From: Sphaerolaimus hirsutus
Taxonomy: Eukaryota; Nematoda; Chromadorea; Monhysterida; Sphaerolaimidae
Assembly: GCA_964036195.1 (NCBI GenBank)
Contig: OZ038459.1
Span: forward strand, 2,601,206 to 2,665,205
Direction: 5' to 3'
DNA length: 64,000 nt
Shown: positions 882 to 54,656 of the stretch, piece after piece
Layout: each line of letters begins with the position of its first letter
Numbering within the stretch: the stretch's first letter is position 1
The notes under the pieces: generated by a model
Database searches by the model: none
Seen by the model: only the letters and a program-made list of their open reading frames with translations
What the model was told of the DNA's origin: nothing
Program-made: the position numbers and the translations under genes

Positions 882-993
882 TTAAGCGGCACTTATTTTG
901 ATGACATCACCATTTTGAACTGAATAGAAGCGGACTTGCCGGAGATCATTTTCCAATTCAATTTCGTTGACATCACTTTCTCCACAGGACAAT
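882..993 (-). CDS. TBCE: TBCE exon 11: C terminus and stop
   Basis: Acceptor ATCTTTCAG. Encodes LSCGESDVNEIELENDL followed by RFYSVQNGDVIKI; stop codon TAA at 884-882. This is the closest match to vertebrate TBCE in the gene. Confidence 0.95.
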
Positions 994-17100: not shown

Positions 17101-20100
17101 ACCCATCCACATCAAGCCATACACAAGCGAGTCTGGACTACGCTTTGGCTTGTCTCACTGCCCAGTGGAGTCGCGTGGGGCTCGCTAGCAAGGCGCTTTT
17201 CCGCACAATGGCGAACTTGGCTGGGACGCCCCATGTGAGGCACGCCGCCGCGGGGAAGTTGGACACTTGGCTGGCTCATACCAAGGTTGGCTGGCGATGT
17301 ATAGTGTTGGGAAATTGGTTTGCCGGGTCTTGGATAGGGCTGGGCAGGGGTATTCTAGATTTTGACCCTCCGGGGGGTTGGATAGATAGCTGAGCGGCCT
17401 CCGAGATAGATAGATAGCTGGAAAAAATTATTATCTTTTTTTGGGTGGGGGGGGGGGGTTTGCGGGGTTTTTATTAATAGGCTTTTTCGAGGTGTATAAG
17501 GAAGAAAAGGGAGAAAAATCGTTCAAAGTAGGTACAAAATTATTAGTTTTCGACATTTAGGCAGTTAACTGGCGTGTATGGGCCAAAATATCTCAATTAT
17601 TTCTACAACTAAATATAACATTCAAAATTGTTAATCGAGCACTTTTTCATATCGAAAATTGCCAGTGAAGAAAACGCCGTGAAAATACAAAGTACCCTAA
17701 AAATGAAATACCCCAAAAATCAACCGCAGTTGCAACGGCACGCGACCGACTTGCTAATGCACATAGTCGCGAATTTGGGCGAACCGCACGATGAAATGGA
17801 TTTGGAAGTGTTGCGCTCTATCACCAAGCTCAGGGCGCTCAAAACGAAACCCGTCCAGGCGCAGTTCGAGTCCGTTTTCCGGTTCGTGTCCGCTCACCAG
17901 TGTTGAACTTTTTGTACTCTTTGGTAATTTGCGACGCCACACGCGCTAGTTGACGGTTGGTGGTCGGTCAACTGGAAAATCTGTTTTTAGCATGTAATTG
18001 ACGATAATTCACATTTTTACCCATGTGCATCTAATAGAATTGACACACACGCAATAGTTATCTGTTTGCGTCGACAAAACGGCTCAGTTGACAACTGATC
18101 GACTGTCAACTGGTGTGTGTAGCCACAACAGTGTTTTTTTTATTTTCAGGGAAGTCGCCTCGCTGCACCCCGGCCTTGTCAGCGCGACCATGAAAATCGT
18201 TATCAACAACGAGTTGAGCGCTATGAGGGGTCCCTACAATTTGCCGATCATGCACATTTGTTTCGTTGCTCAGCCGGTTGCTGCTTCTCAGGTTTGTTTT
18301 AATGTGCCTACACACACTAGTTTTCACCGTGACTTCGTGTGAAAACAGAAATTTTTTCAAATGCAAATTAATGAACACGGTTGAATGATTTAATTCAAAT
18401 TAAATTTTAATTTTAATTAATGAAAGTTAAAGTTTGAAAATTTGTAAACTAAAACAGATATAACATAAAAACAGAGTAGGCTGAATGTCGCCATGTGGCC
18501 ATTTCAGTTTTCACACAAGTCACGGTGAAAACTAGTGTGTGTGGGGCCAATGGAGCAATTTTTATTTTGGGTTTCGCTTTCGAATGTATTTTTTTTCACA
18601 TTTTTTGCCGAAAGGTCATAAGAATTATGATATTTTTTTGAAATAAATGGACACCCATCGTGGAAATTATAAAAATTATGGTCCCTCGCTCAATGTTTGT
18701 TTAGTTATCAAACGCGTTGTGGTAGATTTTCGTTTGTAGTTCCGCAAAAATGTTCGAACGCTGAATGCACTGAAATATTTATTTTTCATAGTTCGAAATA
18801 TCGTTTTTGAAAAAAAAATTTTTACAGGTTACCAAAACCGTATTCATCCATGGTTACCAAAACCATCCACACACACACAAATTTAGGAATTTCGATATAA
18901 GATATTTTTTAGATTTTTTTTTTAATTTTTCGATATCTGTATTTCGATAAAAGATATTCAACTACAGTTGACGAAAATAATTCGTTATCGTCAACTCAAA
19001 TCTATTCAAAACATCCCCCAAAAGCACCCCCTCCCTCGCAGATGTTCTGCAGCACGTGGCTGGACTTGGTGCGCGGCAACGAGCAGTTCGCCGCCTCGCT
19101 GCGCGGCCTCCTACGCGCCCTGGTGCCAGTCCCAGATCCTGTAAAATGCCCTGTCAAATGTAAAATGTCATGGAAAGTGTCAAAAGTCATGTAAAATGCC
19201 CTGCAAAATGGCAACTCAGTTGCCATTTTGCAGTGCATTTTACATGACTTTTGACACTTTGCATGACATTTGACATTTCGCAGGGCATTTTACAGGGTCT
19301 GGCACTGCCCCCTGGTGCGCGAGTGCATGCGCAACGATTTTCAATTCAAACCGGTCGTTTTGGCGCTGATCGACACTTTGAGCGAGGTCGACAACGCCAC
19401 TTTGGATGTGAGATTTTTTTATTGGGTGGGGTTTTTGCGTCGGTTGTGCACCCTGTGCAATGTTTGGCAAGATTTTTGGGGGTCATTTTAAAATTTAGTC
19501 GACTCTTGGCAAACTCGTCTCTCGTTTTGAGAATATTTTTCGAAAATCCCTTTACTTTGTGTGAGACTGAACCAGGGTTATCGGCAATCGATATTTATTT
19601 TGAATTATTTTTTTATAGAAAATTGATATTTTATCCCTGTCACTGATTTCTTCGTCAAAAAAACGCTATCCAAACCCTCTTTCTGGCTGTACCATTAACC
19701 CCGGCAAATAATGCCGGTATAATATGAAAACGCAGTCATGAATTTGCAAATTAGATTTTGCACTATTTTTGGCAACATTCAAATTTTACCAATTTTCACA
19801 TATTTATTTTGTGAACACAGGTGAAAATTCTAAACCACGTGGTGGACTTTATCGTCTCGCTGTGCCTGTTGGGCATCACGCCGCAGATCCGTGAAGCTGC
19901 CTTGAGTAAAAGAGGTAAATTTGGCAAAGACTTTAACAATTTCACAAAATTTTATCTGAAGAATATGACGATGGTAACTGGCGTCCCAAAAATGGGGCAA
20001 TTTTTGGAGAATATGATCGAAAAAATCTCAAAACATCTCTTAGAATTAAATATATCTGTATATCTTTGTTAAATCATAACACATTTGGGACCGTTTGAAA

Positions 20101-23100
20101 ACGTTTTTGGAACGTTTTTTAACACTAGGTAATTGTTCACAACTGGTCACAACTTGACGTACCGCACTTTTCAGAATTACCATACCATTTCCAGTTTACC
20201 GAAAGATTAAAGGTTTACCGTACTGTACCGTTACCGCAACATAGAAATTTTCACCTACCGTACCGTTTACCGCAAGGCCGTACCGTTTGCCACCCTATCC
20301 AACCCATCGCAGACACAGCAACCTCTCAACAAACACTATACCGGTTCCGCGCGGACATGTGCGCCGTGCGAACGGCGGCTCTGCGCTGGATGCACGAGTC
20401 CGTGCCGCTCAAGTTCGTCTCCGGCGCCAAGGAGCACGCCGCGCCCCTGGCCAAGGAGCAGTTCAAAGCCGCCGTGGTGCAGGTGGCACTCACGCACCCT
20501 GGAAATGCCCTGTGGAGTGGTAAATGTGGTGTGAGGGGTCAGAAGTCATGCAAAATGTCCTGGAGAATGCAAAATGTCACTAGAAGTGTAAACAGTTATG
20601 CAAAGTGCCCTGGAAAATGGGAAGTTTGCCATTTTCCGGGTTATTTTGCGTGTTTTTCGCACTCCATGACATTTGGTATTTTATAGTGGATTTTACGTGA
20701 CTTTACACACTTTACGTGAAATTTGTGATTTTACAGTCCATTTTCCGTTACTGCAGACAGTTACATGACATTTGACACTTTACAGGGTATTTTACATTAC
20801 TTTAGAAAATTGCATGGCATCGGACATTTTACAGGGCATTTTAAACGTCTTCTGACACTTTGCATGACATTTGACAGTTTACATGTCATTTCACAGGGTG
20901 TGGGAGTGCCTCTAGCTGCTCATGCCAGACACGGGCACATCGCACGAATTGGTCCACGAATTGTTGGGACCCAACGAGATGGAAAGGGGGTGAGCGGGGT
21001 TGGCGTCAGGGGTCTGGAATCCAAAAATAGATGAAAATTTGCAATATGCTACATAATCAGTTGTTTCGTAGACCAAAATGGGGAAAAATGTATGGAAAAA
21101 GGCGATTCCGTGCAATAATTAATATGTAAAACGGCTCAATTTTTAGCCCACAAAATTAGATAAATCGTTGCAAATTTTGAGCTTCAGCAAAGGAATGGAG
21201 GGGGCTCGATTTTACCAGCTAGGGGGGCTGCAGCCGGCCTCCGTAAGCTAGCAGCCCCCCCCCGCTCCAAAATTCTGGATACCTCCCCTGGCTTTAGCCA
21301 TAGCTGGTCAACAAAATTACGAGTTGTAAAGAATTGATTAAGAACAGATCACGCGCACGTTCCCAAAACCCCTCATTTACCCCCCCCCCCCCAGCACACC
21401 CTGCTGAGCCTGGTGAGTTCCCTGCCGCTGGACCAAGACCTCCTTCTGACCATCCTGCGGCTGTGCCTGTCTGCCACGTGCGGCGTGGACCGCGGCGACG
21501 CCGTGGGCTTCATCGAGGAGTTGATCGGCCGCGCCGCCGCCCTGTCGCGCCACTGCAGCGAGCCCTGCGTCAAGCTCACCGAGCCCGCCAGGGTCGTGGA
21601 ACTTATGTTCTCGTGCTGTACTTATGTACCGCCAATTTCGCATCCGCTACCGGCTGGGTGAGGGTTTTTTAGTGTTTTTGGTGGCTTTTCCGGGCATCGG
21701 CGGGAAATTCCGCGGGTGGTCTGTGGCAAGGACAATCATTGTGACAAGTGACAAGTAAACCGAGCTGTGACGACTATTTTCATGGAGAAATTTGCCTCCG
21801 TGGAATTTGTACTTTTCGAATATCGAATATTTAAAATATGTTCAAAATATATGGGTACATATATACCGTATTGCCTCGAAATACCCCCCCCCCCTCGAAA
21901 TACCCCCCCCCCCCTAGGGTGGCAGAATTTACCGTACCGTACCGTACCGTACCGCATTTTTGGAAAAATTACCGTACCGTACCGTACCATTTACCGCATT
22001 TTAGAAATTTACCGTACCGTACCGCGTACCGCATTTTCCAAAATTTACCGTACCGTACCGCGTACCGCACTCATTTACCGCAGAAAATGCGGTAAATTTT
22101 ACTCAGATTGCCTTAAAAATGCACCTTAAAATTGACTTTAAAATGTGATGTTCTGCAAATTTTTTGCGCGCAAGCGCGCAAGTTTGACAACATTGTTTTG
22201 ACTGATTTGAAGCTCTTCCATTTGCATATGCAATATGGCTGTAACTCTTCATTCACATTAGTATTATGTGTTTTTAAAATCAAGCCATGCGCTTCAAATC
22301 GCACTGTAGGTGTTTTACATCACCCTCAATGTTTTGAGCTTAATTGTTGTAGGTACATATGTTTGATGTAGGGTAGTATACAAAAGGTAAGCAAAAGAAA
22401 AGTGAATGTTTAAATGAAATAACAACTTTGCTGTTGAATTGAAATCTGTTGCTTTGAAATCTGTGGCAAATTGAAATCTTATGGCTACACAGCAGGGGTC
22501 TCCAATGAGGGGTTGAAGTGTGTCCCCAAATTTAATTCATGGCTTATTGCCATATGCACTTATATACTTTTTTACCATTTTCACCTACTTTTAGCAATTT
22601 TTCACCCACTTTTAGCAATTTCTCTCCATTTCTTCCTTCTGAACCTTGAAAAAGCCTATATATTGAACCACTGCATTGTGGTTAATGTAATTCTATGTTA
22701 TCACACTGTTATTGTGTTCTTAAGTCCATAAACAAATTGCATAATTCAATTTAGTGTCAATTCATGAAGTAAAAGTTGTCTGTAGTCCGGCATTGGTACA
22801 TTTCTGACAAGCGAAAATTTACCGTACCGTACCGCGAACTGCACTTTTCAGATTTACCGTACCGTACCGTTTACCGCAAAATTGAAGATTTACCGTACCG
22901 TACCGTTTACCGCAAAAGAGAAAATTTACCGTACCGTACGGTTTACCGCAAGGCCGTACCGTCTGCCACCCTACGCCCCCCCCCCCTCGAAAAACCCCCC
23001 CTCAAAATGGGCACTATGAATTTGTGGTCCGGGAAATGCATAACAGACGTTCAAAACACTTACTGTGTTATGTTAGAACATATCGTTTATACCATCTACA

Positions 23101-26100
23101 TCCTTATATAAGGCTGTAAAAACTTATAAATGGTGGTTATTGTTGCATTTTTCACGATTTTCTCTCAAAATTTTCACTATGAAAAAATAAACCCCCCGGG
23201 GGCGTAACTCGAGGAATTACGGTAGTTATTTAAGCAAAATATCGCCATCGAGAATCTACATGGTCCCAACCCAACGTCACACACTACAGTTACACGCCGC
23301 CAGCCTTGGGTATCGTGAAAATCTATTGGAGCACTTGTCTGGCGGCCGCCACGCTAGCCGCCTTCGACCCGGAAAACACTGGCGCGCTGCTCACGGAAAT
23401 TTATCCATTTGTGGCCGCATTTATTGCCATGATGATTGTCAAGTGAGTTGTTTTTAAAACATAACTTTTTTTCAAAATTGTTGTTTGTTTAAAAAACTGG
23501 TGTCAATTCCGCGAGAAACCTTGAGTTGAGTAGTGAAAAGTAAAATGAGGAGTAGAATGAGAAGTTAGAAGTGAAATTTGAAGTAAACAGCGGACACGTC
23601 AGGTTTGGCACCCAAAAGTTGAGTCAGTGCGGGAGCCCATATCTCCAACTGTAGTGGGGGGATTTATTCAAAATTTTGAGGCCATATACTCGAAACCCCC
23701 CACTACAGCTGGAGATATGGGCTTCCGCACTGACTCAACTTGTGGGTGCCAAACCTGGCCTGTCCGCTGTTTATAATGAGAAGTGAAATGAGAAAGGTGA
23801 AGGTGAAGTGCAAGGACGTATCCAGGGGGGGGGGGGGCGGGGGGGGCTGCAGCCCCCCCCCCTTCTCGGGGTGAGACCCAAAAAGTCCCGGAAAATGCAA
23901 CTTTTCCTACATATTTTCCGATGGTTCTTAAAAATTTTGCGCGCGAGCGCGCAATTTCGTCCCCATGCATTGTATTTTCAGCGGATCGGCCCCTGTAAAC
24001 CAATATACTCGGAAATAAAACCCATTTTTGCGATTTTCGCTGTATATGTATGCATTTTGCATACATATAAAGCGGTTCCTGGCGCTGGCGCCAACGCCAA
24101 TAGCGCCATGGAATGGTGCCTTTGTATGGCGCTAGCGCCAAAACGCCTTTCCGTCCCTATATAGGGAAAAGTTTTAGGGGGGGGGGCTGAGCCCCCCCCG
24201 TTCGCTGGCCCCCGTAAACAAGCAGCCCCCCCCCGCTCAAAAATCCTGGATACGTCCCTGGTGAAGTGAGAAGTAAAATGAGACGTGAAAGGTTAGCTTC
24301 GCTTTTAACTTCTCAATTTTCGGGTCACTTTTTAAAATAATGATGGTTAACACAACCGAATTTTTTCAGCGATTTCAAATGGCCCCCGTTCACTTTGGTA
24401 GCCACCAGCGATGCAGACGCTGCATTCCGCGCCAGAGAGACACAGGTTACTTTTTTGCACTCAATTTCGCAAATTTTAAGAAACTTTAAGATAGCGAAGT
24501 GACAATTATTTTCATTTCAGATTTAATTGTCACTTAATTAGTTCATTTGAAACGTGACTTTACTTTTGACTTTTACAGAACGCTTTTTGGAACAAAATAT
24601 ATTTCAAACGGTTTCGGTTTAATCGGTTTAAAAAACGCCATACTTATCAGTTGCCATTTTCATATCAAATGAACTGGCATCAACAATTCCAGTTTACTCC
24701 CTGCGTTTCTGTTTATTCGACTACATTGGTCTATTTTTTCAGTTATTGGAGCTGGAACGTAGAAGGATAATCGAATTGGAAACGCACCTGGCACAGAAAT
24801 TGATCACGCGTGAAAACAGCCACCTTTTGGCTTTGCTTTGCGACTTGAACCCTACGTAAAGTGAAATTGCGAATTACCGTTCGAAATAACCGGTTCAACG
24901 CGCCGGTCTCGGTTCCGGTAAATCAGGAGTTCCGGTTCCGAGAATCCGCTCCAGACCGCGTTTACCGTTAACCGTTTACCGCAATTTTAGAAATTTACCG
25001 TACCGTACTGTTCACTGAATAATAGAATATTTACCGTACCGTATCGCTTACCGCAAAGCTGTACTGTTTGCCGCCCACCGCAGGGGGCCGCCGCGCCAGC
25101 CGCCCGATGAGATTTTGCAACATCTCGCCGCTCTGAATCGAAAATTTGAGTTGGGAACAAAGTTGTGCGCCTGCAGGAGCCCGGACTACTTCGTGCAGAT
25201 TGTCAAATTCAAGGTTGCTTTTATCGTTATCTCAATCACGGTCGTTTTAGAGTAAACAATAAATGTATGTGAGATGAATTGACATTTCTCGTGATGCATC
25301 AGTTTATTAACTCCGATAAAACTCGCGAGCCCAAGCGCGCGCCCGATTCCGATTAAACTAGATACTTCCTTGGTACTCATACATGGGTATGGTGCGCATA
25401 TAGACCCCATGTATATAAACCCGGTGCCCATGTAGACCCGGTGCGCATGTACGGTTGAACAACATGCGCACCGGGACTACATGGGCACCAGGTAGAAATA
25501 CATGGGCACTGAGCCTACATGCGCACCGAATTTACATGCGCACCGGCACAGACCCGATAAACACAGCCCCCCACATACCCCCCCCCCCAGGGCGCGGCGG
25601 CCGAGTCGCCCCGCTGGCTGGTGGAGCTGGTGCGCGAGGGCAGCGACTCTCTGCTGGGCGTGCTGCCGTGCGCGTCCGTGTGCCAGCTCCTGCTGCACGA
25701 CATGGCCGCGCTGCACGCCGCCGCCGCCGCACCGACCGATGAACACGATGAGGTCCTTGGGGAGGAGGAGCTTGTTGGGCAACATGTTGGACAGTGGTTG
25801 GTTTCTGGTGTGGTGGGTAGTGATGGCAAAAAGTTTTGAAGTCCTCGTTTTAGAAGAAGTTATTTAAACAAAATAAAATTTTTCAAAAGGCTGGAGGCGC
25901 GGGTTCGATTCCCGCCACTGGCAGTGCAAATTTTGCACTCTTTCTCTAGTTTCTAAAAAATATTCAATTTACCCATTTACCCAGAAAAACATTTACCCTT
26001 CCCAGGCCCCAATCCGAAGACCGTCGCTTCGCATCGGCTCCGATTTCGAGCAGCGGCGATGCACTGGGCCAACTCGCCAGACTGGAGAAGCGCGCCAAAT

Positions 26101-29100: not shown

Positions 29101-32100
29101 CAGGACGACCGCGTGCACCAGTCGGTCATGTCCGTGCGCTGCATCAGCGCCATGGTGCAGCTGCTCGCCGTCACGCCGCATTCGCTCCTGCGCTGGTGCC
29201 ACTCCCGCACCCTTGAAAATGCACTGGCAAATGTAGAATGTCTTGCAAAGTGTCTGAAGTAATGGAAAATGCCCTGCAAACCGAGCTGCCTTTTTCCAAG
29301 GCATCTTCCATGATCTTGGACACTTTGCATGACATTTGACAATATCCGTGTTTTGGACACTTTGCATGATATTGACATTTTCCAGAGCATTTTACATGTC
29401 TTTAGACACTTTGCATGACACATTGACATTTTCCAGGTCAGTTTACAGGGTCTGGGAGTGCCCCTGGTCTGTGCGCGGCCGCGAAGCCTGGGAACAGCTG
29501 ATCGTGACTTGGCTGGCGCCGGCGCCCAGCGCCTTTCTCATGGACACCATGGAGGAGGCGGAGCTAACCCCTGATTGGTTGAAGTTGAGAATGTTTAAGG
29601 TTGGTCGCCCAGGGGTTTGTAGGGGGTGGTTAACCCCCCAAATCGTCCATGTATTTATCTATCTACCTATCTGGCGCGATTTTTGGGAAAATTTTGCCCC
29701 AATTTTTCACCCAAAGTCGCTAATTTTCATACCTTTTTTTAGTTTTTCACTTTTAAAATCATTATTTCATTTGTTTGATTGCCTATTTTCTGCGATTTTG
29801 TGTACTATATATATTTACTTGTATGACTATTTTTCACCTGCATTTAGCGTTTTTTCTCTATTTTTTTCCTTCTATACCTTGGAAAAGTCTAAATATTGAA
29901 TTTCCGAACCCCCCCTCACAAAAATTGAGGTGAGTGCGAATTTTGAGGGGGGGTGGGGTTAAACGTTGTTTAAAATTTTTCAAACTCCCAGTACAAATTT
30001 GTTGTTTGTAACGTACGCAGACGTAGAAAAATGCAACAATCAGCATCATGTATATAAGTATGTAATTGGTATAAACCATGTTCTAACGCAGGGACGTATC
30101 CAGGATTTTTGAGCGGGGGGGGGGAGCTGCTTTTTTACGGAGCCCCGCCCCCCCCCCTCTAAAATTTTACCTACAGAACGCCGGAACGGCGCCATAGCGC
30201 CATGGCGCTGCCGCCATTACCAGGCGCCACTCCATAGTGCCATTGGCGTTGGCGCTAGCGCCATGAAACGCTGTATATGTATCCAAATCAACATACAAAT
30301 GCAACGAAAACCATGTATTAACGATGTTTTGTAGCTACAGGAAGCAATAAAGTGATAATGCTGCATGCATGGTGTAAGATGCGCGCTTGCGCGCAAAATT
30401 TTTGGAAATAGCTTGAAAAACTTATAAGAAAAGTTCCATTTCCCGCTATTTTTTTTGTCTGACCTCGGAAGGGGGGGGGGACTGCCCCCCCCCCGCCCCC
30501 CTGGATACGGCCTTGTTGTAACGTAACAAAGTCATGGTTTTTAACTGTTTAAAGTCATGTTCTGCATTGCCTGGATCACAAACCGCAGCTTTTGTCATTT
30601 ACGTCCTCTTTACACCCAATTTTTGTTTGAGGGTATTTCGAGGGGGGTTATAAACTCAGTGTCCATAGGGGGGGGTATTTCGAGGATATACTATAGCAAC
30701 ATTTCAGTGCGCGTCTGGGGACGAGCGTATCATCAAAGCTGCCGCCGATGAAGTCGACCTGCCCGTGCTCCTCGGCGCGCTCAAGTCCTTTTGTCTCACG
30801 CCGCCCGCAATCAGGTATTTTTGCACTTTTTTCAACTTTTTGTTTGTTACTTGAATAATATTTACAACTTGGGTACTGGTTTTTCGGGTCTTGATCGATC
30901 CCGCGCGCCGTATATCGTCATGTAAAATGTCACAAATGTTTACAAATCTGTCAAATGTCAATTGTCATGTAAAATGTCAACTGCTCACAAATTTGTCAAA
31001 TGTCAATTGTCCTGTAAAATGTCAACTGCTTGGTAAAAAGGGTTTATTTTCCCTTTCATTTGAAAAATTTGTGTGACAATTTTACAGTTTATCACGATCT
31101 CGACCCCTTTCGATCCCCTTAATGCACAGAGTGGTTCTGAGCTCGTTGGACAAACTTTGCAAGACCGGTTCCACGGAAGTTGCAGCTGAGCTGCGCAGCG
31201 CCATAGCCAGCGCCTTTCCCAAGCAGCTGGTGCCAGTCCCGAACCCTGGAAAATGTCGTGCAACATGTAAAATGTCATGTCAAGTGTGAAATGTCATGTA
31301 AAATAGGTTTTGGACGATTAATCGCATCTAATATCGACTATTTTTCATATCGAATATTCTATATCGACCATTTTTCATTTTGAATACCCAATAGGAAAAA
31401 TGTATCGATTTACGACATGACATTTACGCAGATTGCGGGTATCATATCGTCCTGACTCTAATGTAAATATTTCCTTTAACTGGAAATTTGACACTTGAAC
31501 TGGAAATTTGACACTTTACATGGCACTTCGCAGGACGCTTTTCATGACACTTAACACGACACTTTACACTGCCCGCGACACTTTCCACTTTTCGGCACTG
31601 TCGCTGGGCGCGCGGCCCGGCGGCGCGTACACGTTGCACAGGAGCTTCGCGCACGCCAAGCGCTTGCTGCTCGCCGGCGACACGTACCGCACCGGCGACC
31701 ACCAAGTGGGAGCCGCCTTTGAGCAGTGGGCCCTGGCCAATGGCGCCCTGGAGGGGGACACCCAGGGGGGTGCCGTCACTGGTTAGTGTGGGGGGTTTGG
31801 GGGTGGGTGATTTTTCGATTTGTTTTTATGGGGGTGGAAATTAACTTTTAAATCATATATTTGAACACCTTGAACTGTATTGCTTGTCACAAATTTCATG
31901 CGAAATGTCCAACGTTTAATGATAACATGTTTTCTCTATCTTTTTATTTTAATTGCCATTTCGCATGACACTTTACAGGGTGCGGGATAATCCTCCACCG
32001 CATGCTTGACATATAATGTTACCGTATTTTAAAATAGTCACATAAATTATTTTATGAATGGATATTTGGTCACATGATCAATTATTCACCAAATTGACCT

Positions 32101-35100: not shown

Positions 35101-38100
35101 TGCATTGTGTGAAAAAACACACACGAATCGGGCAAAAAATGAGGCTGTGATTGTGCCCCTATCTTTTGCATTGAAGCATCCTTAGCGTGCAGTTCTCTCG
35201 AAATTGTATAGGTGGAGATAAATACCGTAATCAACAATATCATCAAAATCTATTTTTCATAACCTCAACACAGGTGAATCTGTAGTCCTTTCATCCGACC
35301 CCCCCTCTGCTGCGGGACCGGAGTCAGTTGACACAAAATGCAGTTTCCCAATGGCTGAATTGTCAACTCCACTGACGGATTTACTGGCTAGCGCGGACAA
35401 GGGTCAAGGCGGCGCTGTGATGAAACTTTTGCATAGAATTGCCGCTATGGTTGGCGGGTTTAAAAAATCGGATTTGTGCATTTTTGTGATCGCCTAAACT
35501 TGTGTTTCGATTTTTTAAATTTGTTTTATATAATTTATTTGAATTCGACTTTAAAATGCTTTTTCCAGTCGAAAAACGATGCCGATTGGAAACGAGTGGT
35601 CGATTGGCTTTGCATCAAATTGGACAAGGCTAGGAAAATTGGACATGTTGACGGGGACGATGTTTTGACCCAGATTTTGTCCGTGCTGTCGTGTAGAATC
35701 CAGGTCTGGTGCTACTGTTGAATTTGTTTTTTGATAACCATCTGTATTGTCAGCGTACTCACTATCGCTTTGAGCAAGACCTCCCTTGAAAAATTCCCCA
35801 GCGTCAACCATCTGCGGGAAAATAACGTATAAAAATATCTAGTTAGGCGCAAATTCCATGTGCATTGTTTTTGCAACCTTACACTGAAATTTACACCTGT
35901 ACATACTGGTTTTATAGTGTATAGGTAACACTAAAATCAGTAACGTATGGTATAATGTTTATGGAAAATTAACCCCCCCCCCCTTTGAATACGTCCCCCT
36001 TCGAAAAATCTCCCCATAAGAAACGTCTGACGAAAAAAAACTCCCCAGGGACATATTCATTGTTATACGGTATTTCAATAATTTTTCGAATATAACAGGC
36101 GTGGAAAAATAGTGAAAGCGGTAAACGACTGTTAAAAGCATGTTCCCGATTAATAGAAATGGGACAAATGAAGAGCAATGGGCTATTGTTTATGGTCTGC
36201 GAAAGATTAATTTCGATGACAATTGGCGTAGAGAAGAAAAAACCAGCTGCAGTGGAGAAAAAGCATACCAGTGACACATTGGAACCGGGTATGGTGTCAT
36301 TTTTTGGATGTTTTTTTTTTGAAAATGGCCCTCGTTGACAGCCAAAACTTCCGAAGCCGATTAGTATGTGTTGAACGAATTTGCGGAATTGGTCAACTGT
36401 TGTTGACGGAGATGAAAAATAGTGCCATTTTGGTGAACTTGTGTGAATGTTATCATATTTAGATAATTTGCAAATTTGGTGAAAAAAGGTGAATTTAGTC
36501 GAAAATAAAAAAATGCTCGTCCCGACCGTTCGTGATTCCGCGCCATAGATATACTTGGCAGACCGCAAAGTATGTGCAGAATCCTACCATAACTTAATGA
36601 ATCAAATCTTGTTATAAATTCGTAATTAGTTATCATATAGTAAAAACTAAATACCATGAGAAAAAAAACTGTATAATTTTTGGTTGATTATTCAAATGGG
36701 TTATGGTAGGTTTCCATACTAAGTGTGATGTCCGCAGAGTATGCATTCGAAGATACGCTGTCCAAGACCTATAAAAATGTCTTATAAAAATAACTAGGTA
36801 CATTTGCAGGTGAAATTGACGGGGAAATTGATCCCGAAGGGACTGCGACGGATAAAAAACCGGTGCCCTCTGAGCTGGCCGACAACCAGTCCAAGGTATG
36901 TGCTCGAATTAGTTCCCCTGCGATGCACACCCAGAGGCACCCCGCTTTGAAATACCCCCAGGTGTCAGTGGGAAACCCCTCGAAATACCCCCCGGCAGTC
37001 CCGCACCTTGTAAAGTGTAAAGTTGAGTGATAAATTTTAAAGTCAGAACGTTACCATCAGGAAACAAAAATTATCGCTGAACTTTTGATATTTTGCCTCA
37101 CATTTGACAAAGTTGTATGACATTTTGCACGGCATTATACACTTTGCATGGCACTTTTCAAGGTGCGGGACCGTCACTGGTCTGAGTGGGCTTGGGAATC
37201 CCCCCCCCTTTCGAAACACTATGCCACCTTTGCCAACAATGAGCACGTAAATAACAAAACAACCCACAGGGGAATAAATTAAAGCGGTGCACTGCCTGGG
37301 CTGTTTCATTGAATATAAATAGCTTTATGCGATCGATAAATCCAATTGAGTCGTCTACTTCTAAAAGTCGACAAGTCCAAAATATGAAAATTTGGAGTTA
37401 GGCCCGGAAACGTTATCTGGGGCTACTACCGCACATTTTTTTTATTTTCCATAAAATTTTTGACCTCACATGCCCATATGGCAAAGTGCCAAATTTGACA
37501 TTTTTGGGGAAAAATGCAAAAATTTCGGGCAAGAAATCGACAAGTCCACCTAGTTTAGTGCAAGAAGTCGACAAGTCCATTCCTCCGCTTCCTTTTTTAT
37601 GGGAAAAAATAGCAAGAAATGTGATATGTCCACTATGGACAGCTACTTCTAAAAGTCGACAAGTGCATCAATTGCCCATAAGGCAGCCTCGGCCTCCCCG
37701 GGAACAAAAATGTTCTCTAGTGCAAGTAGTCGACAAGTCCAATTCCCTCCCAAAAACAGTTTTGCTCTGAACGAATGGAAATTTATGGACACCCAATTTT
37801 TCACATAAAGGTTGAGAGCAGGGGCTGAAAATTTGACACTTTATTGTGAACATATGGAACTTAATGGGAAGCATGAGAGAGCCAAATTGGACACGCACCA
37901 CGGGCGTTGAATTGGGTCCGAAACTTAAAATGCGATTTACTCAAAATCACATTTTGTGGACTTGTCGACTTTTATAAGTAGGGGCCTCAATTGGATGTGT
38001 ACTTTCATTTGCCGTTTGAACCCTGTAACCCTCGTCAATAAATAAATAACTTTTACCGTATTTCTTCTAATAGAAGGGCGCCCTTCTATTTTTTCGTCAA

Positions 38101-41100
38101 CTTTTTTACCTGTCCCTCTATTGGAGATGCCCTTCTATTGGATACCTGCCCTTATATTAGAAGAAATACGGGAAATCACCTTTTAATTTCCCCTTTTCTC
38201 TGCAGGGTTCGTCTGTGCTGTCAGAAAATTGGTGCAAATTTGAGGGGCTGCTACACAGCCAAGCTGAAATGCTTTCTCAGTCGGAAAATTTATGTAGATT
38301 GTTTGAAAGTGGCACCGCCACGGCGCAGAAAGCCGCCGATTTAATGACGAAACACGCGCCGCTCGAAGTTTTGCACTCTGCGCTCGATATTTTGTTGGAA
38401 AAGAAAAGTGAAAGGTAAAATTTTGATTTTGATTTTTTTGTGGCTGTTTTGTGATAGGTCGGATGCCGCTGCGCACTTTGTCCGGTAACTGATCAGTGAG
38501 GAAACTGGACAAAGTTGTGAGGAAAAGCAAAATTTATAACGATATTGGAAGTGATCGGTGTATTTACGTCAGGGGTATCTTGAATTTTGACCCTCCGAGT
38601 GGTTGGATAGATAGCAAATCGCTCCTCCGGAGCAGGGTTGGCAAAATCTCAGAAAAAAATAAAAATAAAATAAAAATAAAATGGAAAATTTGAGAATAAA
38701 ATAAAATGGAAAATTTCAAAATAAAAATAAAAATTGTATAAAAATTTGAATTTTTGTAAAAATTTTGTAAAATTGTGTACAAATTCATATTTTTGTAAAA
38801 ATTGTATAAAAATTCATAATTTTTGTAAAAATTTTCTTTTCTTGCTTATGGTTCAACATGTTTATCCATGGAGCTGGATCAGTCCCAAGCCCTGTAGAGT
38901 GTCAAATGTCATATGAAATGTCATGCAAAGCATCAATTGTCATGACAAATGTTAAGTAAAGTGTCAATTGTCATGACAAATAACAATTAAAATGGCAACT
39001 GTCAAGCAAATTGTATTCAAATCTTGTTTTGTATCCAAATCTTGTTGTTGGTTTTGTATCCAAATCTTATGTCAACATTTGGATACAAAAAAAATGACCT
39101 GTATACGAAAACATAAGATTTGGATACAAAAACACAAGATTCGGATACACAATTGACAATTTGTTTGACATTTGAGATGTCAAATGACTCTTTACTTTAC
39201 AGTCATCATGACAATTGGCACTTTGCATGACATTTTACAAATGTCCACGCACACTACAGTACACCTTCTACTGAAAATGCAAACCATTATTATCAATTAT
39301 TGTTACTTTACACTTGCTACCTATTGCATGCAACTACTAATGCATGTAAGTTCTGCAAAGTAATGGAAAGATTTGTCACCCGTTTTTTTATGTTTAGGTC
39401 TAATTATAAAGTTTTTCTGGCCTTGCATGCAAGATTCTGATTTTTTGTAAAATTTCTGTACATTTTTGTAAAATTTTTGTAAAATGGTTCCATTTTATTA
39501 TTTTATTATGATTTTGGAATAAAATAAAATAAAATAAAATGAAACAAGAATAAAATACAAATAAAATACATTTTTATACAATTTTTATACAATTTGTATA
39601 CAAATGATTTTTATAAAACCAACCCTGCTCCGGAGGGATAGATAGCTGAAAAATTTTCTGGGGGGGGTTGTGGTGGTTCGATATATAGGCTTTTTCGGGG
39701 CATAGAAAGAAGAAAAGGGAGAAAATCGGGTATACAAGAGCATATAGTACTTAAAATAGCTGAAAATAGGCAGTTAGACGCATGAACCAGTGATTTTGGG
39801 GGTGAAAATCTATATATAGGTATGAAAAGCGATTTTGAGCGAAAATTGGGGTATAGTTTCTGAAAAATCGCTCCAGATAGGTAGATAGCTGGGCGATTTG
39901 GGGGGGGGGGGGTTAGGGGGTAGTAGCCCAAAATTTTGCCTCCGGGATAGATAGATAGCTGAGCGGCCTCCGGGATAGATAGATAGCTGGGCGGTTTGGG
40001 GGGGGGGTAACCCCCCCCCAACCCCCCCCCATTCGAGACCCCTGATTTACGTAGTTCTTATAAATAAAGGCAGGAAAAAATTCTTATCACGAAAACCTAC
40101 TTGTACAGGTTCCTACCCCCTGATCATTAACCCACCTAAAAATGCAACAAAAATAATGAAAACATAAAAAAATCCAAACTCCGCCCACCAGCACGTGCGC
40201 CACCAGCGTGCTATCGCTGTGGGCTGCAGCCAGTGAGCGCGTGTGTCTGCGCGAAGGGAGGTCTGCGCACAGCTGCCGTCTCGGCGGCGAGGACCCGCTG
40301 CAGATGCAAGTGCCGCAGCTCGTCGCCCTGGCTCAGCTGGTCGTGCTGCACTGTGAGTCTTTGGGCGAACTAGTTGACGCGGCGTCAATTCAGCTGGGTT
40401 GGCGGTTGACTTTTGAGTTGACTGTGTCCGAATGTTGAGTTGGATTTTGATTCGTCTGCATGGATGAAAAATAAGGAAGATAAAACATATTTTAATAGCA
40501 TAGAAATGTAATTTTGACACGCTCTCAGTTACAAATTCAATTGAGTTAAAAATATGGCTGTGTGATATTTGACAGGTGGACTCAGTGGCGTAGCCAGGAT
40601 TTTTGAGCGGGGAGGCGGACTGTATACGGAGCCCGGCGAACGGGGGGCGGGCCCCCCCACCCTAAAAATTGACCCCTGTAGTATGGCGCCATGGCGCCAG
40701 CGCCATTCATAGGCGCCACACCATGGCACCATTGGCGTTGGTTTTGGCGCCAAATACCGCCGTATATGTATGTATTTTACACACATAAACAGCGACGTGG
40801 TCATTTAGGGGTTTTGGACATTTTGATCGGGATTTGTCGCCCACGAAGACGGCGAGCTGAAAATAGCTATTGTGTGGGGGGAAATGCGCAAAAATTTTAC
40901 AGAACACCCTTGAAAATGTACTGAAAATCGCCGCTCCCGGCCACCTTCCATGTGTCGCCCGGGAAGGGGGGGCAGCCCCCCCCCACCCCCCCCGCCCCCC
41001 TGGCTACGCCACTGGGTGAACTGGGAACTTTTCGAAAGACCTCACTATCATGGGCAAAGTAAACTAAACGAGCACTATTTTTAGACATAACAACACATTC

Positions 41101-44100
41101 TCATTTCCACTTGCAGGCGAGCAGTCCCGAGATGAGAATGCCGTTTGGAAATATGCCAACTTTTTGGCGCGTGACGCCGCGCCGCCCGAGAAAACCAAAA
41201 AATTGGCCGCACATTTGGCTGAAGGCACTCTGCGCTCCACCGGCCGCACCGCTCGCATAACCGCTGCGCTTTTGTTGCAATTGTACTTTGAGGTTTGTAC
41301 CGTATTTCCTCGAAATACCCCCCCCCTTGAAATACCCCCCCCCTCGTTTGACCCCCCCCTCGTTTGACCCCCCCCCCCCTCTCGAGACCACTATGAAACA
41401 ATCACCCCCCCTCGAAATACCCCCCCCAAATTGAGTGTAAAGGGAACGTACATGACAATAACTGTAGTTTGTGTTCAGTGTACTGCAGAACACACGTTAA
41501 AACAATGTCGGTGTCACGTTAGAACAGTGTACATACCATCTACATACTAATATTAGTCTACATAACCTTATAAATGGCGGTTTTTGTTACATTTTTCGAC
41601 GTCTGCGTACGTTTCAGACGACAATTTCGTACTTGGTTTTCAAAAATTTCTTCTGAAACAATAACCCCCCCCCCTCGAAATACCCCCCCCCTCGTTTAAC
41701 CCCCCTTTTTTGGGACCACTATGAAACAATCACCCCCCGGGGGGTATTTCGAGGAAATACGGTAGTCAGTTTTGAGTTTGAAACATTTAGATTGTGTTCC
41801 ATTGCGGTCGCGCCCTAGTCAAAACTTTGGCACTTCGAACGACTGGAATTATTGAAAGATATTTTGATGAATTTGCGATTTGAATTTCAAAATCACGATT
41901 TTGGAAACGCCCTTTTCCCACTTATGTAACCAAAACGTTCCAATGTGTGGCCAAAATTTTCTGTGTAACTTGCGTCTTGCGACGATGTTTCGTTGTCCAG
42001 ATATAAATAATTTTCCATGGTTTCCAACAAAACTTTCCAATGTCGATAAATGTTTATAACACTCTATAAACTTGCTTTCCAGTGGCCGGACGCATGTCTT
42101 TTGGAAAAGAGCCAGGATTCGGATGTATCAGGTGCCGTTTTGCACGCAGCCACCCTTCAGAGAACTGTTGGAAAGATGCCAAGTTTTTCTCCTGTCAGGC
42201 CTTATGAAATTCCGTCTACTCCTCGGACCTCATGCTATGCATTTTTTTCTGAAGGAGACGTTCCGTCATAACATCATTGTTAATAAAATCAAAATTATTC
42301 CAAAAAAGTGACAAACATTCCAGGAAAAAAAACATTAACGACTACGCCTTTTCTTTTTAGAAAATTTTAATTAAAATTTGTGAAGGTGGGTGCATAAGTA
42401 TCATGCTGGCACGTTATCGACAAGGCATAAGTAATTTTGGACGAATACTTTGCTGCCCGCCGAGTATATTAACAAACTGATTTTTAATCGCTCTTATAAA
42501 TGTTTCGCAGATGGATAGAGTGCTTCACGAGGTCCTGTCAGAATATTTTGAGCAAATTTTGTCCGATTCAAGTGACGACCTAATAAATATTTTTGTATCG
42601 GTGCGATCTCTAGCGATGACACACCCCGTACTTTTTATGAGGTTTGCGGGAATGGAATTTTCTGTTTACGTCTACAGGGTATACTCGGCAGACATGATAC
42701 TATACAATGAGTAGCATGATGTCATATCATGCACGCTGTATCCAACCCGTAGAACTCTGTTTGGGTGACTCGTGCTTACGCATATACGGAATGAAACTAT
42801 TCAATTGTGCCCGCACAATTCAAACCCCCGTCAAAGTGTAGTTGAGTTTTTTGGCATGATGCCATCCAAGCGTCGTCTGGATCTGAATAAATACAAAGCG
42901 GGAACGTTTTCTGAATTCAAAATTTTGAACGTAACAAGTTTTCGTCAAAATGAATCGATAGCGTGTAACTTTTCTAAATATGAATTAGATTAAACGTAGG
43001 TAAACGTATAATCAAAAATTTGCAGCACCTATCGGCACAAAAATTGGAGTAAACGAGTGCGTAAAGAACAGCACATTTTTATTTTCCTTCTTACTATCTT
43101 TATATTTTCTTTTTTACCAAATTCCTTTCTCGTTCGCTCTACAAGAACAAAATATAACTTTCCAATTTTGTAGAATGAGATGTCCGTCGACTATACATAT
43201 TGACATATTCACGACCCACTGTGCACCGTTTTTCTACCGTATTTAAGATGTATCGCACTTCGCTGTTCAGTAAGATGTTGAATTTCATTGACGCTCAGCG
43301 AAGCGAAACATAAGTGGACCAAACCTGTGTAATATCATGTCTGCCGACTATACAGACATTACATTTTGCACTGCAAGTCTACCGATTTATATGTATTTTT
43401 CGTCGCAATACGTTGCTCTCTCTCGTCGTACAATATAGCACAGGATTTGCAACATGTCTTTTGCACTGAAATATGTATTATTCTGCAGTCGCTGGGGGGG
43501 GGGGGGGGGGACGCAACCCGTACCCTGTAAATTGTAAAGTAAAGATTTTATTGTTGAACTTTTGACATTTTGAATGATATTTGACAAATTTGTATGACAT
43601 TTTACATGACATTTGACACTTGACTTTACACTTTACAGGGTGCGCGACTGCCACCTGGTCAGTGGATGTAAGCTGCATTTTTTCATCCTCCTTCAATTTC
43701 AGGCAATTATCGTTGATAAACACAAGCCTGGACACATTCTCGGTCAAGCCTTGGCATATCCTGAAAAGATCAAATTACACGTTGGCATTGCGCCAACTTT
43801 TGTCCATATTCTATCTAGTCATTCCAACCAGCGAAAGGCACGCTGAAAACGCCAATTTCGAACGGTTTTTGGACGCAATGCTGTTGTTTTCCAAGGTAAT
43901 TTGGTTTGCGTGATTTTTCGGTTGATATTTTTTGGAACGGGAAACAGCGGTCGATATCATAGTGAGTAGATATATCGACTTCTTGTACCTCTCTGCAAGT
44001 AATTATGAACGCTCTGCAAGGATGCAACCCAGCTATTTATAATTGAAACAATAAGTTATTTTGGCGAAATATAATATCAGAAAATTTTTCAAAATGGGGA

Positions 44101-47100
44101 ATAATTTGATCGACATAAAAAATTAAGGAAAAATGATATTTTTATACATTTTTCATATAGTGGAAAAGCCTGGAGAAAATGTAAATAAATCTAAGATTTT
44201 GTGATATTGAAAAAGTATTAATCTCCCAAATTTTTTGATGCTAAAGAAAGACTGCAAAATTGCACTTGCCGAACGGGCACCTCTCGTATAGAACACGAGT
44301 GCCCTAACCACTAGACTACAGAGGCGGCTGGGCTCTTCACTATTAGGGGCTGACATGCTGCGTCGGCAATGCCCTTCACACTAACCATGTTATGCTTCAG
44401 ACAGATTTAATTATATCTTTTTTTGAGATATTTCATGAGATTATATTTTATTCTACATAGCATCACCCATTTTTCCACTGCGAGCTGGGGTGCACACTTG
44501 CAGAGAGAGAGAGAGAGTTCCAGCCGACATTTACAGTCGAAAGCGTTCACATGCCCCTACCCCCACCCTTCCCTCGCAGCGGCACGGGCTGCGCAGTTCG
44601 CTGCACCTGGACATCGTGTCGCTGGCGCTGTGCGCGTTCGGCACCTACCAGATGGACGAGCCGCACACGGCGCTGCTGCCCAAGCACTGGCTCCTGCTGC
44701 ACGCGCTCAAGACTCGCTACCCCGCGCTCGCGCACCTCGTTGATAGGATTGTGGACAGGTTGTTTGGGTGGAGACTCTCTGCGCATCTACGCTCCCTGCG
44801 CATCCAAACTCCCAGCGCATGTAAACTATCTGCGCATAGACTGCAAAATTGCACTCAGTTTTTACATGCGCTGGTACACCGTCGTTTTTAGTCATCTGTT
44901 TTTTTATGTGTGTATGCCAAGGGTTCGGTAGATTTTGACTTTGATAGACTGTTTTCTCGCGGGGTTCGGAAAGTGTCTAGCAATGTAGGTAGAAAGTAGA
45001 AATTGGAAATAGTTTACCCTAAATATATTTACTGAACCTACAACCTCAACATGGAGCATCCTTCCAAAAACCGAGTTGCCCCGCAGCGCCGCGCAGCCGC
45101 CGTCCTGCGACGCGGACATCTCCGACTTGGCTTCGTCCGCGACCACTTTCGAATCTGCGCAATTGTCCGCCGCTGACGGCGCTGCTGAAAATGGCACGGA
45201 CGTTTCGGCCCAGGTTTTTTAAAAAAATTTTGTCAATTTTTGTGGAAATTTCCTGAATGTCGTTCAGGGTGACTTTTCGATCAAAAATAGTTGTTTTCAT
45301 GTTGTTGCGGAAATCTGGGTATTTGAATGTTCGCCAAGTCATATATGTCAACATCAAATGCCGAATTCGATCATAAAACAAATCATAATGTAACCAAAAA
45401 TATATGTATTTTTTCAGGCGTTTTTTTCAAACGTTTTTAAAAAAAACGTTATCATTATATTACTATTGCTGGTGGTTTTCATTGGTTCAAAGTTCCATTT
45501 GTTCCATTTGTTCATGCTATTGTGTCATAATAAGCCGTGCTATGTTAGTGTAGTATATAATATGTTGACACATAACCATATCTGGGAGCTTTTGAAAAAA
45601 ACCCCGGTTTTATCTAAAAAAACGTATTTTAAAACGGGGTCGTTAACAAAAACGTTTTTCCATCCCTACTCACAGCGCGACGGGGGCGGCGGCACGTGGC
45701 CGCGCGTCGTGTCCAACCGGCAGCTGCTAGCGGCCGCTCTGAACGTGCCGCCGACGGACGTGCAGCCGGTGGCGAGCGCGCGCCTGCCCGCCGCCGCCGT
45801 CGAAGTGCGCCCCTGGGTGCTGCAGCTGCGGCGCTGCGTGCAGCCGCAAGTCCAGCCCCACGCCTTGGGCGACACCCTGCGCCAAATGCTCGACCAGGTG
45901 CCAGTCCCGCGCCCTGGACAGCGCCCTGGGGAGTGTCTAGTTCTATGTTGGGTCGAAGTGTCTAATGTCGAGCAAAATTCCATGCAAAATGTCATGTGAC
46001 ATAGTTTGACATTTTGCAGGGCATGCTGCATGACTTAAGCTACTTTGCATGAATTAGACATTTCGCACGGCCTTTTCCAGGGTGCGGGAGTGCCCAGATC
46101 GGCGGCCACAGTGTGCACGCGCTCGCGCCCGCCTTGCAGCTTGTGGTTGCCGTGCTTGAGGAGTTAGTCGATTTTGTACTCCGCCGTTGTGCATCAGCGC
46201 ATCATAGGTATTTGTAAAAAGCGTATTTACGTTTTCTCGAGTACTGCGCAAAGTACGCGTACTCACCTGTATGCGTACTGTTGATGGTCATCCCTAAGCA
46301 TGAAATCCGAGTGTCGATTACAATGAGATTGGGATTATCCCCCCCCCCCCCCGCAGTGGCAATTTGCCAGAATCTTGCCGCCGGCCGGCGCTGTGGCTGC
46401 TGCAGCGCTGGTTTGTCGCCGCGCAAAGTTCATCTCCATCTGATTTCCAACTGCACGCTCCGATTTTTGACGCGCTGCTCAAAGTTCTAGCGGAGCGAAA
46501 AGCATCTTCGTTGGTGAACGATGTCGTTGAGAGATTGCATTTGTTTGTCAATTTGGATAGAGGTCGGTTTTTTGGCACGCTTGTTTTTGTGCATGAAATC
46601 AGTGATGGTTTTTACTGTTTATTGAGGATGAACTATAATTCAGTTACCGTATTTGCCGGTATATTTTTCCACAGCTGGCTCTAACCTAAGGTATTTCGGG
46701 GGAGGGGGGATAATTCGAGGAAAACTGTATACCGTATTACCTCGAAATACCCCCAGGGGGTTTATTATTTCGCCAGCAAAATTTGAGGGGGGGATAATTC
46801 GAGGGGGGGGGTCTATTATTTCGCCAGAAATTTTCGGAAATTCCCCATACGCGGACGTAGAAAAATCAAACAATTACATCGATGTATATGTGTTTATACG
46901 CATATATAACTGTATATACACAAAAACCCTTCCCTAACGTCACTTAATCATCAGTTTTAACGTGTGTTCTGCATAGTACAGATCACAAACTGCGGTATTT
47001 GTCATGTACATTCACGTTACACTCAATCTTAGGGGGGTATTTCGAGGGGGGGGGTTTATTGTTTCCTCAGCCGAAATTTAGGGGGGGGTATTTCGAGGGG

Positions 47101-51044: not shown

Positions 51045-51270
51045 CTGGGGCCAGTTCCGCAAAATGAGAAATGTGAAGTGAAATGGCAAAGACGAAGTGA
51101 AAGCTCTAAGGCGAACTGAATTGGCAAAAGCGAAGTAAAAAAATAAAGATAAAAGGTAATTTTTCTTCGCTTTTGCCTTTTCACTTGCCGTTTCACTTCG
51201 CCGTTGGGCTTTTATTTACTTCGCCTTTGTCATTCCACTTCTCACTTATCATTTTGCGGAACTGGCACCT
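51045..51270. mobile_element. GCCAGTTCCGCAAAATGA MITE, relative of the introner family
   Basis: Left GGGGCCAGTTCCGCAAAATG, right CATTTTGCGGAACTGGCACCTG. The terminus resembles GTGCCAGTCCCGCA of the introners but the interior (GAAGTGAAATGGCAAA) differs. Confidence 0.75.
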
Positions 51271-53536: not shown

Positions 53537-54656
53537 AGTGATGGAATGGTGCCATTGCGCTGGCGCCATTTGCGGGTGCCACAAGACGCCATGCCATGGC
53601 GCCATTTGTGCTTGGCGCCCTTTTTCATGTGGCGCCATTGGCACCTGGCGCTCTTATTCGCGATGGGCACCATGGCCCCCTTTGCTCTTCGCGCCATTTT
53701 CCCGAGGCGCCCTTGGCACCTGGCACGCTGCTTCTGGCATGCCAACTTTTGACTGGAACAAGATATTGAAATAATGTTTGGGCCAGATTACTTCGTTTTG
53801 TCTCAAATATATGATAGAATGTTCAAAAAACGTCTTGAAAAATTAATAATAAAATATTTTTTCATGTTTTAAAAGCGAAATACCCCCCAAAAAACAAAAC
53901 GCAGAACAGAGGTAACAAATAATGACAGTGACAGAGTTTTTGCCGTCTACATAAACACCTTCCCGGTCACGTCCGGCACCCTATTTTTGATCGTACTTGT
54001 GACACACTATCTCCAGTTCTAGGGCGCGCCAGAAGCTGAAACTTGGGGGAGATATTGGCGCGACCCCCCTAAGTCATGCGAGATAGAGGGGGGTTGCGCC
54101 AATATCTCCTCCAAGTTTCAGCCTCTGCGGCACCCTAGAACTGGGTATAGGATGTGAGAAGTAAAATCAAAAAATGGGTGCCGGACGTGACCACAAAGGT
54201 GTTTACTTATAAAAGTCTATACAGTCTTATAAATGGCAGTTTTTCTTGCATTTTTCAACGTCTGTGTACGTTACAAACAACGATTTAGTAAAATCTACCC
54301 TCTCAAATAAGTACCCTCGAATAAGTCTCCTTGAATAAACCCCCTCAAAACGTGTTGACAAAAAAATAACCCCCTGGGAATAAAATATTCATGATAAGAT
54401 GAGTTTTGTGGCATGAGTCACCATCAGAAAAATGGTATCCTACGTTGCTCCTCTATAAATGCTTCTGTGATGATATTTATACAGGCTGAAACAGTGAAGT
54501 GTTTGTTGGCATCATTGTTTCTGGTGCTCTTTGGTGCCCAGCACCATTTATTTAGATGGCGCCGTGGCGCCATTTTCTCTGTCGCTATTTGGCGCCCAGC
54601 ACCAATTTTTTGAATGGCACCTGGCACCATTTTTACTGGCGCTTTTCCATCACTAC
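53537..54656. mobile_element. TAGTGATGGAA element with GGCGCC arrays
   Basis: Ends TAGTGATGGAATGGTGCC and GCGCTTTTCCATCACTA. Subterminal GGCGCCATGG-type words on both sides. A 260-bp palindrome sits inside at 53955-54210. Confidence 0.72.
53955..54210. repeat. Long inverted repeat
   Basis: CACGTCCGGCACCC and CTCCAGTTCTAGGGCGCGCC at the left are matched in reverse by GGCACCCTAGAACTGGG and GGGTGCCGGACGTGACC at the right, with GGAGATATTGGCGC facing GCGCCAATATCTCC at the centre. Confidence 0.75.

Follow-up and report, generated by a model that had tools for sequence, protein, structure and literature searches.

The window analysed here is a 64-kb stretch (64,000 nucleotides; contig OZ038459.1, called C15 below, positions 2,601,206 to 2,665,205) of the 348-Mb, 762-contig genome of the nematode Sphaerolaimus hirsutus, and it carries the INTS1 gene on its plus strand. 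A spliced query matched nine INTS1 proteins, six of them with vertebrate names, at an E value of 2e-51 and about 26% identity; among the 7,997 candidates scored, no INTS1 closer than about 26% was found. The otherwise continuous reading frames of this region are interrupted by five predicted introns (I1 to I5), which are copies of a single terminal-inverted-repeat (TIR) family. With high confidence they can be regarded as introners, that is, as short non-autonomous transposons of the NuwaI type, related to PIF/Harbinger, which duplicate CWG (CAG or CTG) on insertion and whose splice boundaries lie as proposed below. In a preliminary description of this DNA the same five introns had been listed, and re-reading of the window letters found their coordinates to be right:

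19120 to 19122, plus strand: left CTG copy of the 3-bp target duplication of I1 (right copy at 19312-19314)
19123 to 19314, plus strand: I1, GTGCCAGTCCCAGATCC...GGGTCTGGCACTGCCCC followed by the right CTG; GT-TG for a join at the duplication (alternative in-frame AG at +9)
20483 to 20915, plus strand: I2, left CAG, right TAG; GT-AG
29196 to 29466, plus strand: I3, left CTG, right CTG; GT-TG, or GT-AG via an in-frame AG at -18 or -30
31230 to 31606, plus strand: I4, left CTG, right CTG, right end degraded; GT-TG as the sole close in-frame solution
45898 to 46097, plus strand: I5, left CAG, right CAG; GT-AG; gene identity of the exon not confirmed

The preliminary description had assigned all five introns to INTS1, which holds for I1 to I4. 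A PDB alignment to human INTS1 crosses I1 with a one-residue gap nearby and also crosses I3, at whose junction the human chain shows a gap of six residues. I2 and I4 are flanked by INTS1-matching exons, and their junctions fall outside the alignments. For the exon that surrounds I5 (45703-46208), no useful match to INTS1 or any other Pfam or PDB sequence was obtained, so that an INTS1 location is established for four introns. Exon 42511-42651 displays a weak match, below the cut-off, to the R3 domain of INTS1 (E 8.5e-4). I5 is carried by a run of exon-like frames at 43703-46561 (AIIVDKHKPGHILGQ..., DIVSLALCAFGTYQM..., RVVSNRQLLAAALN...), for which likewise no useful Pfam or PDB match was found. 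Frame continuity was assessed with a script that tried frame-keeping joins on the intron flanks, a zero offset denoting a join exactly at the duplication. Zero offset was returned for I1, I2, I4 and I5, while the join of I3 stems from a separate scan. Among twelve ordinary neighbouring exon pairs of the INTS1 region, for which the script tried GT-AG only, seven gave a GT-AG join within 3 nt of the expected edges, four required larger offsets and one gave no join. As the edges of the exon pieces are rough, the ordinary introns here can be GT-AG, without all of them being proven so.

The element extends from 5' GTGCCAGTCCCGCACCCTG to 3' CAGGGTGCGGGACTGCCCC, as judged from the window and 88 loci elsewhere in the genome. 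Its ends are inverted repeats except for the outermost bases, which are GTGC at one end and GGGG at the other when read inward. With up to three mismatches, the 19-nt terminus GTGCCAGTCCCGCACCCTG is matched nine times in the window (0.00 expected from 100 shuffles), and five of these matches are the left ends of I1 to I5. Both termini are kept in four of the five intron elements; the right end of the I4 element is badly degraded, in agreement with the fifth, more diverged intron end mentioned in the preliminary description. A genome-wide search, as that description had proposed, yielded 4,729 matches to the terminus with up to two mismatches, against two for the control. Since no more than two positions distinguish the right end from the left, this figure refers to ends and not to elements. 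The I1 element is a near-perfect palindrome with 98-nt arms that are 90% complementary. Its RNA is predicted to fold into one hairpin with both splice boundaries near the base (-150.7 kcal/mol, z -20.9), and the corresponding values for I5 are -103.4 kcal/mol and z -7.5.

The flanks of these elements were studied in a sample of 88 loci that hold 90 of 100 listed exact terminus matches, with two matches in each of two loci; ten places were not fetched. The sample comprises exact-terminus copies on the contigs C1 to C9 and is biased toward well-preserved copies. Of its 90 exact left ends, 36 are preceded by CAG and 27 by CTG, i.e. 63 by CWG; genome-wide, 58 exact left ends preceded by CAG were counted. 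Position -4 is C at 49 of the 90 left ends, and a G follows the right copy in 22 of 40 cases. These counts argue for CCWGG as the target and CWG as the duplication. In the 46 copies with well-preserved right ends, the left/right trinucleotides are CAG/CAG (18), CTG/CTG (8), CTG/CAG (6) and CAG/CTG (2), with other or unassigned combinations in the remaining twelve; both sides thus read CAG or both read CTG in 26 of 46. The duplication is hence 3 bp in length and not the CWGGT core given in the preliminary description. An 8-bp duplication as in hAT-like elements was considered as well, given that I1 is flanked by CCCTGGTG on both sides, and was rejected because I2 to I5 and the sampled copies share only CWG.

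The origin of the two splice sites can be read from the same junctions. All five introns begin with GTG, and the spliced exon after the left CWG continues with GTG (I1), CTG (I2), GTC (I3), GGC (I4) or ATC (I5). The non-GT exon bases in I2, I4 and I5 indicate that the GT of these introns came from the element, unless the exon has changed since. A donor supplied by the left duplicate, as the preliminary description had it, is ruled out by these three junctions. Its second proposal, that the right copy provides the 3' boundary, fits the letters well: a right CWG copy stands at the junction, reading TAG in I2, CAG in I5 and CTG in I1, I3 and I4. Intron gain by insertion of a DNA transposon, the overall claim, is therefore supported in that copies of one TIR family sit intron-like in coding sequence, and it needs amendment as to the donor and the duplication length.

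In the explanation favoured here, the element inserts at CCWGG and duplicates CWG. In the sense orientation, the left CWG would then end the upstream exon, the GT with which the element itself begins would serve as 5' splice site, with the right CWG copy as 3' splice boundary, and splicing would restore the exact reading frame that existed before insertion. A CAG target would give a standard GT-AG intron, and a CTG target would give a GT-TG intron from the same element, which may be tolerated initially and might change to AG later on in some copies. The insertions are presumably recent.

Members of the family also occur outside the five introns, as the remaining four of the nine terminus matches mark copies at 1278-1441 (matched at both ends), 36992-37177 and about 43512-43653. 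Together with two related elements, the further copies in the window are as follows:

1095 to 1272, minus strand: related element with TCAGTCCCAAGCCCTG-type termini, abutting the copy at 1278-1441
1278 to 1441, minus strand: family copy, coding score below threshold; left CTG, right CCG
36992 to 37177, minus strand: family copy whose GTG end lies on the minus strand; possible antisense exonic copy
43512 to 43653, minus strand: family copy whose GTG end likewise lies on the minus strand; approximate start, the left end being degraded
51050 to 51266, no strand assigned: related element with GCCAGTTCCGC termini and CTGG-like flanks

Such copies outside introns would be expected if ordinary old introns had later been invaded by transposons. 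This explanation is very improbable, since in I1 to I5 the elements reach both intron boundaries, CWG copies stand exactly at the junction, and I1, I2, I4 and I5 join with zero offset. The two abutting related elements at 1095-1441 have one CTGG site in common, as though the target copy of one had been the insertion site of the other. Further palindromic or inverted-repeat stretches, apparently of other families, lie at 53952-54205, 10713-11633 and 62061-62409. On the minus strand, frames within 900-7500 resemble tubulin-folding cofactor E (7269-7496 for the CAP-Gly part, about 885-1080 for the C-terminal part), and those at 13786-15236 resemble a retrotransposon polymerase.

Whether copies elsewhere in the genome interrupt exons as well was addressed with a codon model trained on 25 of the 27 exon pieces of the INTS1 region (1,192 codons; four pieces stem from the unconfirmed stretch at 43-46.6 kb). 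Among 96 left ends with up to two mismatches in the 88 loci, 72 have a right end within 1.3 kb, and the right trinucleotide was assignable in 62 of these. After the mirror image of the symmetric element L082 had been dropped, 61 copies were scored. At a coding-score threshold of 4, set after the scores were seen, the joined flanks are coding in the sense direction in 33 copies, in antisense in two and in neither in 26 (binomial p 4e-8); with paralogues collapsed, 27 sense stand against two antisense of 54. As controls, the threshold was reached at 33 of 704 strand-positions in the DNA flanking these loci and at six of 400 positions in the window at 53-64 kb. The sampled family is thus enriched at coding junctions (33 of 61 versus 33 of 704), contrary to the lack of enrichment that the preliminary description had named as speaking against its claim. 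The 33 copies have a median length of 187 nt, and 25 of them lie in phase 0.

Protein comparisons complement the codon model. Ten peptides were hand-picked for Pfam from 82 junction-spanning sense frames of 47 copies, and in eight of them a match spans the junction, two below the cut-off. The E values are 3e-10 for a receptor, 9e-5 for a GBBH-like domain, 1e-17 for ALIX, 1e-6 for Tudor, 3e-14 for an mGluR ligand-binding domain and 3e-8 for RCC1; those below the cut-off are a kinase (1e-5) and CBF (0.002). PDB sequences align without gaps across the CAG/CAG junction of an mGluR3-like protein (E 1e-23), near the CTG/CTG junction of a cholecystokinin-type receptor (E 1e-13) and to GVGGFGRVEL|V at the CTG/CTG junction of a cGMP-dependent kinase (PKG, L033; E 2e-19).

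The sense bias argues for an RNA-level process that requires GT first, and together with frame continuity it suggests that the elements are removed by splicing. The 3-bp duplication at the boundaries and the occurrence of both CAG and CTG in coding sequence would suit another process as well, namely a precise somatic removal of DNA that leaves one target copy, as with the internal eliminated sequences (IESs) of Paramecium, for which the identity of the acceptor would be irrelevant. Such a process would require neither an orientation nor a GT start, yet 33 sense copies face two antisense ones, and a second, rougher scan points in the same direction with 21 versus five. In addition, I1 to I5 all begin with GTG and the assembly retains the elements. 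DNA removal hence appears highly unlikely. The second scan used looser termini and a cruder fixed join over 363,660 bases; 69 copies were scored in it, 62 of them orientable, and three of its five antisense cases (in L012, L059 and L075) turn into sense with the finer join.

Joined at the duplication, I1, I3 and I4 would be GT-TG introns, a point absent from the preliminary description, while I2 and I5 are GT-AG. The same two classes of acceptor occur among exonic copies, which with paralogues collapsed comprise CAG/CAG (13), CTG/CTG (6), CTG/CAG (5), CAG/TAG (1) and others (2); for these counts, L059:4553 was moved by eye from CAG/CTG to CAG/CAG, and it still stands as CAG/CTG among the 46 copies above. 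A sizeable share would thus end in TG, if joined at the duplication. Sequence considerations make it likely that TG acceptors are used at CTG/CTG copies. Alternatively, the elements may be introners whose CTG/CTG copies are spliced at nearby canonical AGs or damage the gene, with no TG acceptor in use. This alternative is less likely than not. In-frame AGs occur at I1 (+9, losing three residues), I3 (-18 or -30, gaining six or ten), PKG (+21), the receptor (+24), the lectin-like pair L038/L039 (-12), L010 (+6) and L059 (-9), and extra residues at I3 would be unsurprising in view of the six-residue gap in the human chain. In well-studied animals TG acceptors are uncommon; for the fly, the part of the source cited here gives 23 annotated GT-TG introns among about 60,000, of which 22 have a similar alternative splice (PMC4528330). 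Against it stands I4, which contains no in-frame AG between -60 and +45, leaving GT-TG as its sole close in-frame solution. Use of the AG at +21 in PKG would delete seven residues from a stretch that aligns gap-free with human PKG under the TG join, and nearby in-frame AGs are, by eye, no commoner at CTG/CTG than at CAG/CAG sites. Moreover, the boundary CTGs persist in the paralogues L057, L058 and L059, although the elements themselves, right terminus included, have diverged.

L057, L058 and L059 share one insertion, and their right termini differ (GGGACTGCCCC versus GGGAGTGGCAC), as though the sequence of one palindrome arm had been transferred to the other. In L038 and L039 (near 1453 and 1490), the same 13-nt exon segment (GTGCATCCACCTG) flanks the element on either side and replaces its right terminus. 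In exons, CTG on the left combined with CAG on the right is found five times and the reverse not at all, one copy having been reassigned by eye; this excess fits a change from TG to AG after insertion and is too small for significance. Below the coding threshold both directions occur (CTG/CAG three, CAG/CTG two).

As to the source of the elements, 5'-CWG-3' duplications mark the NuwaI group of PIF/Harbinger-type transposons (PHIS superfamily), which according to the part of the source cited here occurs mainly in animals (PMC4482050). The source transposase would be recognised by a terminus starting with GTGCCAGTCCC beside a CWG duplication. A Harbinger element of the zebrafish has the target CACCWGGT. 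The genome holds at least 163 matches to the domain DDE_Tnp_4 (PF13359; 150 of 306 candidates scored; best E 1e-14), which by score and structure fall into at least two groups. Hand-joined exon pieces of the two transposase loci L089 (C15:673800-678600) and L090 (C4:18195500-18199700) match the domain at 3e-19 and 1e-16, respectively. A second gene, with a Myb/SANT domain, is a further trait of the NuwaI group; upstream of the transposase, reading frames occur on the opposite strand. L089 represents the larger group, in which most full-length members among the matches listed hold three to five internal TGA codons that probably reflect an intron within the matched stretch. At least 13 of the matches listed score about like L090, and three other copies compared with L090 over their 5' parts are nearly identical. 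A related element (306-497; terminus GTGGCAATCCAAAGCCCTG) apparently forms an intron in the transposase gene of L090 itself; it lies between a left CTG (303-305) and a right CAG (498-500), and the frame continues as ...SYPL | DDSSDED.... In 3.6 kb spanning the upstream part of another transposase copy, in which the element ends were not reached, no introner terminus was found.

Several observations weigh against the view that these elements are introners of NuwaI type with the boundaries proposed here. On L089 and L090, where the element ends were likewise not reached, the introner termini were not found, apart from weak partial matches. More than a quarter of the exact left ends (27 of 90) lack a preceding CWG. 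The donor GTGCCA looks weak beyond +3, and a strong hairpin in the intron RNA could hinder splicing. The sense excess is smaller in the rougher scan, in which I3 and I4 fell below the coding score, the join having a fixed offset and one end being degraded. L077 is antisense in both scans and may be an antisense exonic copy, while for the window copy at 36992-37177 the joined flanks reach a coding score of 8.3 on the plus strand, which reflects either an antisense exonic insertion or chance. Finally, ten further junction peptides gave one plausible Pfam match, a second mGluR junction (0.0017, below the cut-off); for the other nine no credible Pfam domain was found, and their coding status hence rests on the codon model.

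How do these introns compare with known systems? Introners are repeated, DNA-transposon-like introns that arise in exons, reported from only two animal groups in the part of the survey cited here (PMC9860276). The introns described above agree with this picture in being many and in resembling one another up to the splice boundaries, with five in the window and 33 of the 61 sampled copies at sense coding junctions. As in one type of introner described by Gozashti et al. 2022, the element would bring its own 5' splice site and obtain the 3' site from the duplication. In that type, known from Chrysochromulina, the duplication is of 4 bp and TIRs are lacking (PMC9860276, part cited here); here, in contrast, TIRs are present, CWG is duplicated and the target base would set AG or TG. 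The section concerned mentions GC and GA 5' sites and not TG 3' sites. GT-TG introners are known from Micromonas, where the classes IE-B and IE-D comprise 25 and six members with a bias toward phase 2; the section on these classes gives no cause for the TG (PMC3879977). GT-TG repeat-element introns would be common to both systems if the CTG copies are joined at the duplication, whereas in the nematode a CTG target would be the reason for the TG, phase 0 is the prevailing one, and sister copies with GT-AG boundaries occur as well. Larvacean tunicates, of which Oikopleura is mentioned in the cited part of PMC3879977, possess many introns that deviate from the GT/AG rule, above all among those gained recently (PMC13326754, part cited here). 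In that part no CWG transposon or target-set TG is described, and here seven of the twelve ordinary INTS1 pairs fit GT-AG closely.

With the NuwaI group, the present family has in common the CWG duplications (63 of 90 left ends) and the occurrence of DDE_Tnp_4 transposases in the genome; no autonomous element with introner termini was found here, the element ends not having been reached. The word 'intron' is absent from the text on that group (PMC4482050). Recently gained introns with PIF/Harbinger sequence are also known from fungi, where it is one of several transposon classes detected, and no splice-site mechanism is described in the part of that study cited here (PMC8476143). The Paramecium IESs (PMC8354472) resemble the nematode elements as mobile elements in exons that are removed; they are removed from DNA and not from RNA, and an orientation with GT first is not expected for them.

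Transposon-born introns with borrowed 3' sites (PMC9860276) and GT-TG introners in Micromonas (PMC3879977) are thus already known. Among the literature matches listed, no paper was found that links introners with CWG-duplicating elements; as far as these matches show, both the CWG-duplicating source and the setting of AG or TG by a target base are new. A survey of introner sources from 2025 may include this species or element type.

Introners have been reported in few animals, at least in the part of the survey cited here (PMC9860276), and how transposons acquire working splice sites is an open question. The family described here offers a likely answer from sequence, in that the element would contribute the GT while its preference for CWG targets would bring either a CTG acceptor or a perfect CAG one. 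It also provides many natural pairs in which the same element ends in AG or TG, and which can be used to test the strictness of the AG rule, the maturation of new introns and the range of transposons able to become introns. The chances are about even that this one family mass-produces both GT-AG introns from CAG targets and true GT-TG introns from CTG targets, with the latter working from birth and some later changing to AG under selection. If so, TG would be widely acceptable to the 3' splice site machinery of this lineage, and newly formed GT-TG introns would represent a natural intermediate in the birth of introns.

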